Positions 17,146-18,142 of a DNA stretch of 64,000 nucleotides are shown here, piece by piece (position 1 is the first letter of the stretch; every line of letters starts with the position of its first letter). Source of the DNA: Lacinutrix mariniflava (GTDB lineage Bacteria; Bacteroidota; Bacteroidia; Flavobacteriales; Flavobacteriaceae); NCBI RefSeq assembly GCF_001418015.1, contig NZ_LIQG01000026.1:372001-436000 (forward strand), written 5' to 3'. The position numbers were made by a program, and so were the translations under genes. The notes under the pieces are model-generated. The model saw only the letters and a list, made by a program, of their open reading frames with translations. It had not been told where the DNA came from and searched no databases.

Positions 17146-17219
17146 TCCTCTTTAGCTCAGTTGGTTAGAGCATCTGACTGTTAATCAGAGGGTCCTTAGT
17201 TCGAGCCTAAGAAGAGGAG
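17146..17219 (+). tRNA. tRNA-Asn (GTT)
   Basis: A 74-nt cloverleaf. Acceptor TCCTCTT (17146-17152) pairs with AAGAGGA (17212-17218), with discriminator G. The anticodon arm TCTGA/TCAGA encloses the loop CTGTTAA with anticodon GTT at 17180-17182. The T-arm is CTTAG-TTCGAGC-CTAAG. CCA is not encoded. The 3' half is partly duplicated twice downstream (see the tandem repeat at 17196-18010). Confidence 0.96.
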
Positions 17220-17232
17220 CAAGTTTACAGAA

Positions 17233-17257
17233 GCCACTAGAAATAGTGGCTTTTTTT
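17233..17257 (+). terminator. Terminator of tRNA-Asn, abutting the first GIY-YIG start codon
   Basis: GCCACTA (17233-17239) and TAGTGGC (17244-17250) enclose a GAAA tetraloop, followed by seven T. The ATG of the nuclease gene begins at the next base. Identical copies are at 17607-17631 and 17981-18005. Confidence 0.9.
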
Positions 17258-17545
17258 ATGGAAAATACCGTCTACATACTACATTCGATTAAACTTGATA
17301 AATTCTATACAGGTGAAACTGCCGACTTTAATACTAGAATAGAGTTTCATAAAAATGCTGAGTCTCGAAAATTTACCGCTAAAGCTAATGACTGGACTTT
17401 ATTCTTGAAATTTCAATGCGAAAACAAAACAATTGCCAAAAAGATTGAACTACACATTAAAAAAATGAAAAGTAAAGTATACATCAAGAATCTAAAAAAG
17501 TATCCAGAAATTATCAGCAAACTAAAAGAAAAATATAAAAGTTAA
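17258..17545 (+). CDS. GIY-YIG nuclease family protein, copy 1
   Basis: A 95-residue single-domain GIY-YIG (URI/UPF0213-like) nuclease. The core motif is VYILHS...KFYTG (residues about 4-19), then the conserved Arg in RIEFH and Glu in KKIELHIKKMKS; the C-terminus is highly basic. The start is ATG 17258; an in-frame GTG at 17246 lies inside the terminator stem and is rejected. No promoter fits between the T-run and the ATG, so expression must come from read-through of the tRNA-Asn transcript. The stop codon lies in a sequence derived from the tRNA anticodon region. The role is unknown; a homing-type or mobility function is inferred from the tRNA duplication. Confidence 0.9.
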   Translation: MENTVYILHSIKLDKFYTGETADFNTRIEFHKNAESRKFTAKANDWTLFLKFQCENKTIAKKIELHIKKMKSKVYIKNLKKYPEIISKLKEKYKS

Positions 17546-17551
17546 GCAGAG

Positions 17552-17569
17552 TCCCGATAGCTATCGGGA
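17552..17569. repeat. 18-bp perfect palindrome TCCCGATAGCTATCGGGA (first copy)
   Basis: It separates the degenerate anticodon-like block (17541-17551) from the tRNA T-arm copy. It replaces the five bases GGTCC of the real tRNA. The second copy is at 17926-17943. Confidence 0.9.
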
Positions 17570-17606
17570 TTAGTTCGAGCCTAAGAAGAGGAGCAAGTTT
17601 ACAGAA

Positions 17607-17631
17607 GCCACTAGAAATAGTGGCTTTTTTT
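17607..17631 (+). terminator. Terminator hairpin, copy before the second GIY-YIG gene
   Basis: Identical to 17233-17257 (GCCACTA-GAAA-TAGTGGC and T7) and again directly followed by ATG. It would limit read-through into the second nuclease gene. Confidence 0.85.
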
Positions 17632-17919
17632 ATGGAACATACCGTCTACATACTACATTCGATTAAACTTGATAAATTCTATACAGGTGAAACTGCCGAC
17701 TTTAATATTAGAATAGAGTTTCATAAAAATGCTGAGTCTCGAAAATTTACAGCTAAAGCTAACGACTGGACTTTATTCTTGAAATTTCAATGCGAAAACA
17801 AAACAATTGCCAAAAAGATTGAACTACACATTAAAAAAATGAAAAGTAAAGTATACATCAAGAATCTAAAAAAGTATCCAGAAATTATCAGCAAACTAAA
17901 AGAAAAATATAAAAGTTAA
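17632..17919 (+). CDS. GIY-YIG nuclease family protein, copy 2
   Basis: A tandem duplicate of copy 1, 95 residues, differing at two amino acids (Asn3 to His, Thr to Ile in the FN-x-RIEF region) and at a few silent positions. All family motifs are intact, so both copies appear functional and the duplication is recent or maintained by conversion. It is preceded by the same tRNA tail and terminator, and followed by the same degenerate tRNA block, palindrome (17926-17943) and a third tRNA tail. Function is as for copy 1. Confidence 0.9.
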   Translation: MEHTVYILHSIKLDKFYTGETADFNIRIEFHKNAESRKFTAKANDWTLFLKFQCENKTIAKKIELHIKKMKSKVYIKNLKKYPEIISKLKEKYKS

Positions 17920-17925
17920 GCAGAG

Positions 17926-17943
17926 TCCCGATAGCTATCGGGA
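17926..17943. repeat. 18-bp perfect palindrome TCCCGATAGCTATCGGGA (second copy)
   Basis: Same position in unit 2 as 17552-17569 in unit 1. The rest of the gap up to dprA (18011-18142) shows no gene or clear signal. Confidence 0.9.
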
Positions 17944-17980
17944 TTAGTTCGAGCCTAAGAAGAGGAGCAAGTTTACAGAA

Positions 17981-18005
17981 GCCACTAGAAATAGTGGCTT
18001 TTTTT
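17981..18005 (+). terminator. Terminator hairpin, third copy
   Basis: The same 25-bp hairpin and T-run close the tandem array. The five bases ATGGA and a TAA follow, the remnant of a third nuclease start. Confidence 0.85.
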
Positions 18006-18142
18006 ATGGAGTAAACTTTCACTCACTAACTGCTATATCTATACTTAGTCTTTAATAACAAAACATCATTAATTTTATTTCTTCACGATATAGAATAACA
18101 AGTCAAAACTTTAAGAAACTAATTATTAAAAAGAAGAGAATT

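Follow-up and report, generated by a model that had tools for sequence, protein, structure and literature searches.

The window analysed here, a 64,000-nucleotide stretch of the Lacinutrix mariniflava genome, holds a single tRNA gene, a tRNA-Asn(GTT) at positions 17146-17220, behind which two small units stand in tandem, each with a GIY-YIG nuclease gene, a palindrome and a displaced copy of the 3' end of the tRNA. At a probability that we put at roughly 0.7, the unit is a minimal homing-type mobile element of tRNA genes. Units of this kind, some 300-400 bases long and with hardly more than a single nuclease gene, occur within tRNA genes of many Bacteroidota and leave the tRNA complete. It seems rather likely, too, that such elements form a Bacteroidota-wide class, perhaps of the smallest autonomous homing elements, in which each clade would be specialised on certain tRNA isotypes, enter at a fixed point (variable loop, anticodon, T or D arm), rebuild the 3' or 5' half of the tRNA and leave the displaced half capped by a hairpin, with mini-units lacking the GIY-YIG gene (GIY-less) maybe moving in trans.

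An earlier sequence-only reading of the window had described two 374-bp units, each made up of a GIY-YIG gene, a tRNA-like 11-mer, a palindrome and a tRNA tail with terminator, and this was borne out in its essentials. The features are as follows.

17146-17220, forward strand: complete tRNA-Asn(GTT), presumably the functional copy (ARAGORN; Rfam tRNA, 68 bits)
17191-17195, forward strand: GGTCC of the tRNA variable loop, the boundary and inferred cut region; the palindrome replaces GGTCC in displaced copies (sequence comparison)
17221-17257, forward strand: first terminator copy, with a hairpin (17231-17252) and T run
17258-17545, forward strand: GIY-YIG nuclease gene of unit 1, 95 amino acids (ATG at 17258, stop ends at 17545; Pfam PF01541, E 2.2e-9)
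17541-17551, forward strand: GTTAAGCAGAG, remnant of the tRNA anticodon side, overlapping the unit-1 stop codon (10/11 match)
17552-17569, forward strand: 18-bp palindrome TCCCGATAGCTATCGGGA of unit 1, at the junction of element and displaced tRNA half
17570-17594, forward strand: displaced tRNA-Asn 3' end of unit 1 (100% identity to 17196-17220)
17595-17631, forward strand: second terminator copy
17632-17919, forward strand: GIY-YIG nuclease gene of unit 2, 95 amino acids (ATG at 17632, stop ends at 17919; PF01541, E 8.1e-9)
17915-17925, forward strand: GTTAAGCAGAG of unit 2
17926-17943, forward strand: palindrome of unit 2
17944-17968, forward strand: last displaced tRNA-Asn 3' end
17969-18027, forward strand: terminator and native downstream flank of the empty site (59 nt identical to congener G005, locus L055)

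A 67-nt block comprising the last 25 nt of the tRNA and the terminator, through TTATGGA, occurs in three 100% identical copies (17196-17262, 17570-17636 and 17944-18010) at a period of 374 nt. Tandem Repeats Finder reported 2.2 copies of 374 bp with 99% matches, and 370 of the 374 positions are identical between the two units (17196-17569 and 17570-17943), which leaves four differences. The exact copy of the tRNA 3' end is thus present, at a length of 25 nt and not the 24 nt first given. The 10/11 match of GTTAAGCAGAG (17541-17551) to GTTAATCAGAG in the anticodon region (17180-17190) was confirmed, with a chance of about 8e-6 at one fixed place, as was the position of the nuclease stop codon inside this tRNA-derived sequence, longer versions of which are present in relatives. 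Entry at the anticodon loop, as originally proposed, proved wrong for the window, whose boundary, at tRNA positions 46-50, is in the variable loop; in other classes it falls in the anticodon, the T arm or the D arm. Tandem copy number varies, from the two copies of the window to 5 to 7 GIY matches in loci L093, L133, L141 and L142. Within the Asn-type array L141 (genome G215), a transposase-like gene is apparently inserted into a nuclease copy.

Homologues of the nuclease were found in 23 of 149 genomes in a first search, many of them adjoining Asn, Arg, Phe, Met, Pro, Val or Ser/Pro tRNAs. A profile built from 21 proteins (alignment A1) matched 230 of 299 genomes of the family at E 1e-8, a threshold that also lets in ordinary GIY-YIG genes; loci were taken from the top of the profile list, and the set is therefore score-chosen and not random. 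A tRNA lay at most 200 nt from the nuclease gene in 103 of 119 rows, or 86 of 101 after removal of 18 rows as re-fetches (a count that leaves out L048, a separate locus among the 18). Nine of the 15 loci without a tRNA call were viewed by eye, and all had tRNA-like sequence or fragments or a contig end. Among 34 control rows of ordinary GIY-YIG genes a single one, L199, had a tRNA within this distance, and it is an element member; the remaining controls gave 0/33 (31 measured in the same scan, two without a profile match checked separately, and two rows, L002 and L170, being the same gene). Beside the ordinary GIY-YIG gene of L002, in the L. mariniflava genome, there is a match to Flavo-1 RNA (L002:1099-1173).

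In a second set of 80 loci, picked for Asn-type proteins and sharing 10 of its tRNA-adjoining loci with the first set, 61 adjoined a tRNA and 19 were not called; the 61 comprised 49 Asn loci with the complete tRNA upstream, 10 with tRNA-Asn downstream, one Met and one Leu. Phylum-wide, 164 of 392 sampled genomes matched at E 1e-16, a level that lies above the control scores (at most 58 bits). A tRNA was present within 200 nt in 26 of the best 28 of these loci, which added Ala, Thr, Asp, Ile and Pro-CGG to the list, and most of them had a partial copy of the adjoining tRNA nearby. The link to Ile is less clear (tRNA 144-145 nt away), and isotype labels met once only (Ser, Cys, Arg-TCG, Pro-CGG) may be degenerate copies. 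The use of other tRNAs and a second copy of the RNA end, both envisaged when the units were first described, were thereby established: the same protein clade stands at tRNAs for at least ten amino acids, and a partial tRNA copy usually lies on the far side of the nuclease gene. Two further observations were made in these searches. A close nuclease relative (L299, 59% identical) lies in a contig of a metagenome-assembled genome named Rickettsiales, reflecting either a binning error or a transfer beyond the phylum, and a tRNA-Val(TAC) pattern recurs in four tandem matches at 112-nt spacing at G045:C8:46588-46951.

The loci fall into two mirror-image layouts. In layout a (Asn-a, Val, Arg-TCT, Met, Phe and Leu) the nuclease gene follows the complete tRNA and precedes a 3' remnant; in layout b (Asn-b, Arg-CCT, most Pro and some Asp) it follows a 5' remnant and precedes the complete tRNA. 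The same tRNA is used from opposite sides by Asn-a and Asn-b. Rebuilding of the 3' half would accordingly not be general. Boundaries, counted over distinct loci with duplicates removed, were typical for most classes: tRNA position 51 in 18 of 28 measurable Asn-a loci (51 loci in all), 14 in 11 of 12 Asn-b loci, 46 in 7 of 11 measurable Val loci (15 loci), 41 in 3 of 4 for Met (5 loci), 62 in 4 of 6 for Phe (10 loci) and 22 in 3 of 4 for Arg-CCT (5 loci). They were scattered for Arg-TCT (43 to 59) and Pro (9 to 51). A few layout-b loci, when read, had promoter-like sequence ahead of the broken copy, and transcription of their tRNA may therefore run through the nuclease gene.

In a tree of 125 rows, built from a short alignment and with many forks unresolved, a single branch (100/98) has 24 of 25 control rows on one side and all element rows, with the remaining control L199, on the other. 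Mapped on the tree, tRNA labels required 36 changes against a mean of 91 after shuffling, and none of 200 shuffles was as low. Subclades were formed by Arg-CCT (100/98, 5 rows), by Phe with one uncalled row (100/98), by 7 of 9 Asn-a rows with one uncalled row (100/98), and by Pro-TGG with four other rows inside (98/97); Arg-TCT, Met and Asn-b formed none in this tree. The nuclease subclades thus appear largely to follow tRNA type. At one tRNA-Asn locus in Psychroflexus (L081 and L300, the same locus) two different GIY-YIG types occur together, and the C-terminus of one looks like a translation of the 5' end of a different tRNA, which might reflect a stacking of two elements.

The GIY-YIG motif residues are invariant in the 21-row alignment, and AlphaFold modelled the window protein as a single GIY-YIG domain followed by C-terminal helices (mean predicted local distance difference test score 89, predicted template modelling score 0.78). 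By sequence, the nearest solved structures are UPF0213 proteins (1zg2, E 2.6e-11), namely BH0048 and EF2693, together with Slx1; a fold search ranked the same proteins first (UPF0213, E 1.2e-3), none at E 0.001 or better. The window protein had no tblastn match in 50,697 phage records and none in plasmids, one other member had none in phages (phages only searched), and the Asn set gave 99 pattern matches but no relative among IMG/VR viral contigs. PHROGs returned a weak homing-endonuclease match for one Pro-type member only. These relationships leave room for a passive passenger, in which incoming DNA recombines homologously between conserved tRNA genes while the nuclease serves elsewhere, for example in branched-DNA repair like Slx1: tRNA genes offer recombination a conserved target, UPF0213 proteins and a structure-specific nuclease are the closest relatives of solved structure, and the 95-amino-acid protein is without a separate DNA-binding domain. 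Since this account leaves unexplained both the restriction of the element clade to tRNAs, relative to the control clade, and the match between subclade, tRNA and boundary, we regard it as unlikely.

Empty sites were found within the genus. A query spanning rseP and tRNA-Asn matched all 13 Lacinutrix genomes compared, the nuclease was found in 0 of 12 congeners at E 1e-6, and the 11 congener loci read have the same tRNA-Asn with the unit absent. In G005 (L055), 59 nt after the tRNA equal the sequence behind the window's last tail, and 42 nt after the tRNA equal the sequence behind its complete tRNA; because the empty site is identical there, the last tail of the window, with its terminator and flank, is the old native end. 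In the twelfth congener (G006, L064) a complete tRNA-Asn is followed by a terminator that differs, by about 100 bp of further sequence and by a residual native tail with terminator. From its sequence this would be the expected leftover of a unit that lost its gene, a scar.

Filled and empty loci were also compared in Flavobacterium, where 71 of 111 genomes matched the rseP-tRNA-Asn query and the best 30 loci were read. In 13 of these the last complete tRNA is followed by a terminator of the type ATACCA(C/T)TTA (ATACCACTTA type), and 10 of the 13 carry a nuclease or hairpin tail, versus 0 of the other 17 loci (12 with the GACTATCA terminator type, 5 with other terminators). The ten comprise seven with a good nuclease match, one cut by a contig end and two that are GIY-less (L325 and L338), the last having hairpin tails and no nuclease match in the 1.3 kb read, as remnants or scars. 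The empty relatives of L347, L327 and L330 (L345/L346, L326 and L329, respectively) have, directly after the tRNA, the terminator type that these three loci keep behind the displaced half, so the terminator beside the complete tRNA is non-native in the three. Locus L344 holds one nuclease gene and an array of GIY-less mini-units, about 11 in number and each of 93 nt, which have hairpin tRNA tails and look like a non-autonomous derivative. The original proposal that the tRNA is rebuilt and the gene stays intact therefore stands in part: one complete tRNA is left in the window, and rebuilding of the 3' half rests on these relatives, the window terminators being all native.

Lateral spread was seen between Psychroflexus longus (L300) and P. 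montanilacus (L308). Their upstream windows are 68-88% identical and their downstream windows 32-48%, whereas the stretch from tRNA to tail is 83-100% identical (at least 95% in 12 of 14 windows); near-identity is limited to this stretch, which therefore moved laterally. Between L300 and P. lacisalsi (L281), upstream sequence is 83-97% identical and the nuclease windows 67-83%. The nuclease is under purifying selection, with a median ratio of non-synonymous to synonymous substitution rates of 0.13 (range 0.06-0.51, 33 pairs).

These comparisons also bear on simple tandem duplication, whereby a nuclease gene standing beside a tRNA by chance was duplicated together with the stretch around it, tRNA tails being by-products. 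The direct-repeat units, the variable copy number and the identical terminators in the window would all follow from it. Single-copy loci at many different tRNAs nevertheless share the layout, which comes in two mirror images, the unit-linked terminator differs from the one behind the tail, and the transferred stretch has sharp edges. Duplication is thereby refuted as a full account, and we hold it very improbable as such, while it is the likely origin of the extra copies. The suggestion that the unit is mobile or selfish, which had been staked on empty sites and on copies at other tRNA genes, gained support, both having been found and the former in Lacinutrix as well as in Flavobacterium.

Homing by double-strand break repair, with the tRNA halves as homology arms, would account for the layout, the foreign terminator, the native tail and terminator behind it, the typical boundary and the transferred stretch. 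One unit would consist of a tRNA 3' part with its terminator, a single-domain GIY-YIG gene, and a hairpin marking the junction with the displaced half. The nuclease would cut a unit-free tRNA gene at the point typical of its class, in the window the variable loop; the broken left end would then pair with the donor's complete tRNA and copy the 3' half, terminator, nuclease gene and hairpin, and the right end would pair with the donor's tail. This would yield a complete tRNA whose 5' half is the recipient's and whose 3' half comes from the element, and the native 3' half with its terminator would end up displaced, behind the hairpin. In other subclades the process would be the mirror image, with the 5' half rebuilt. 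In this scheme DNA cleavage, the repair route and the nuclease as driver of movement are all inferred.

Several results weigh against homing of this kind. All three terminators of the window are native, so the window alone cannot show a unit-borne 3' half, and its copy, taken alone, is indistinguishable from a local duplication. Insertion does not destroy the cut site, as the complete tRNA is unchanged in filled loci and only the displaced copy is altered. The tRNA-Asn of the window matches the empty-site tRNAs of 7 of 11 congeners with 0 mismatches and those of the remaining four with 2-3, and the presumed target thus survives beside the nuclease; in Flavobacterium, the first tRNA-Asn is likewise the same in filled and empty loci (29/30). 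The L. mariniflava genome, with no Val-type unit among its GIY-YIG matches, has the same tRNA-Val anticodon arm as filled loci. Three Flavobacterium loci (L334, L342 and L348) have the unit-linked terminator with neither nuclease nor tail, and in L349 it occurs with a divergent nuclease, which shows terminator and nuclease to be separable; L335 has the same terminator type on both sides. Distances of rseP and nuclease correlate at r 0.45 over 50 distinct loci (single values being rough, as some rseP segments look truncated), and vertical inheritance therefore contributes, mixed with transfer. Immunity through an altered complete tRNA found no support, either for tRNA-Asn in the congeners or for the tRNA-Val anticodon arm in 110 genomes, a survey of arm sequences irrespective of element presence. 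The resident tRNA could possibly escape through low expression, through repair from neighbouring copies (which would produce arrays), or through action of the nuclease on folded or incoming single strands.

As to the hairpin, perfect stems of at least 6 bp were present in 114 of 133 flanks, versus 8.0 expected from shuffles, and the dominant stems were TCCCGA (39) and CCCCGA (32). More weight falls on the stem tally, because flanks may include terminators and such a hairpin was also present in 25 of 137 complete tRNAs. In the loci read, the hairpin lies at or near the junction of the element with the displaced half, and some tails contain a second one. Our best guess is that it acts as a junction cap destroying the cut site in the displaced copy. 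In the L. mariniflava genome the palindrome of the window has 11 sites at up to two mismatches, four of them exact, two of which lie inside the units. That it might be private to the element was rejected: CCCGATAGCTATCGGG occurs in 21 of 149 genomes (9 of 23 with a nuclease match and 12 of 126 others), up to 40 times per genome and in contexts without tRNA likeness, and none of the 12 congeners has it. In an IS3-like transposase gene of L. mariniflava (L010, L381), of which a 90% identical copy without the palindrome exists, TCCCGATAGCTATCGGGA replaces AGGTC; this replacement would suit an off-target scar, a rule from which the other sites read depart. A variant palindrome with TCCCGA stems was seen inside interspersed repeats of the GTCACTTCGAGTGA...TTGTATCGAGAA type in the same genome (L016, L018). 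In G062 (L206), a tRNA-Pro-like gene has its D arm seemingly replaced, by eye, by the same palindrome, possibly an old scar.

Among known systems, tyrosine-integrase genomic islands enter tRNA 3' ends, restore the tRNA and leave a partial 3' copy; the tRNA units differ in being below 0.5 kb and in leaving 5' remnants as well. An integrase-type island was ruled out for the window, whose units hold GIY-YIG open reading frames (ORFs) only and no integrase gene. Also ruled out was a group I intron with a homing endonuclease, no group I intron RNA having been matched with Rfam in the window region or in the loci scanned. UPF0213 single-domain GIY-YIG proteins are nearest in structure, and the control chromosomal GIY-YIG genes stand across a supported branch and not beside tRNAs.

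The closest analogues are the mobile ORFs (mORFs) of fungal mitochondria and SegB of T-even phages. In mORFs (Allomyces atp6; Glomus atp6, atp9, cox2 and nad3), as described in the sections cited, an endonuclease ORF carries a foreign 3' end of the target gene, which replaces the native end and displaces it downstream; Glomus atp9 uses a GIY-YIG enzyme, and double-strand break repair homing is the mechanism given (PMC3630166). The tRNA units share with them a homing-type endonuclease domain, empty and filled alleles, and lateral spread, and relatives bring their own target-gene end while displacing the native one, as the Flavobacterium terminators show, with exceptions. The target is not lost on insertion, and we therefore claim that the unit works like an mORF element and not full membership. 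The mORFs reside in mitochondria and in protein genes, the hybrid genes listed for Glomus measuring 1.2-1.9 kb in all, whereas the tRNA units are in tRNA genes of bacterial chromosomes and have junction hairpins and mirror-image 5' versions.

SegB is a free-standing GIY-YIG homing endonuclease beside tRNA genes that cuts within them, and its nuclease activity drives tandem amplification of a tRNA-plus-nuclease unit, raising tRNA-Tyr dosage (PMC13096335, sections cited). It is phage-borne, and neither a displaced half nor a junction hairpin is among the features reported in those sections. Close sequence kinship to phage proteins was not detected by tblastn for two members, the SegB sequence itself lying outside the comparison. 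Since SegB amplifies tRNA units under attack by tRNA-cutting defence, according to the same sections (PMC13096335), a host-useful decoy was considered as well, in which broken hairpin tRNA copies would draw off phage nucleases or toxins that cut tRNA, with the element's nuclease serving just for their amplification. The array of about 11 mini-units in L344 would suit such a role; the copy in many Asn loci is a 3' half only, from which no cloverleaf is possible, the window protein has no PADLOC match, and the nuclease is absent from all 12 congeners. A decoy is thus most improbable. A defence-system reading was rejected, PADLOC giving only weak matches, for one Pro-type member. No description of GIY-YIG units in bacterial tRNA genes was found in the open-access literature, preprints being outside the scope of that search.

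If homing of these units is the correct reading, it raises the question of how the host's own tRNA gene escapes cutting. The logic known from fungal mitochondria, in which the end of the target is carried along, would now be found in bacterial chromosomes, and the tRNA-cutting phage nuclease SegB would have a chromosomal counterpart. The units may account for some of the small GIY-YIG genes and odd tRNA-SeC or tRNA-Stop predictions in Bacteroidota annotations, and would offer compact nucleases whose likely tRNA targets are readable from the genome. Throughout the phylum, essential tRNA genes would constitute a niche for elements of less than 0.5 kb whose spread involves no intron, intein, transposase or integrase.

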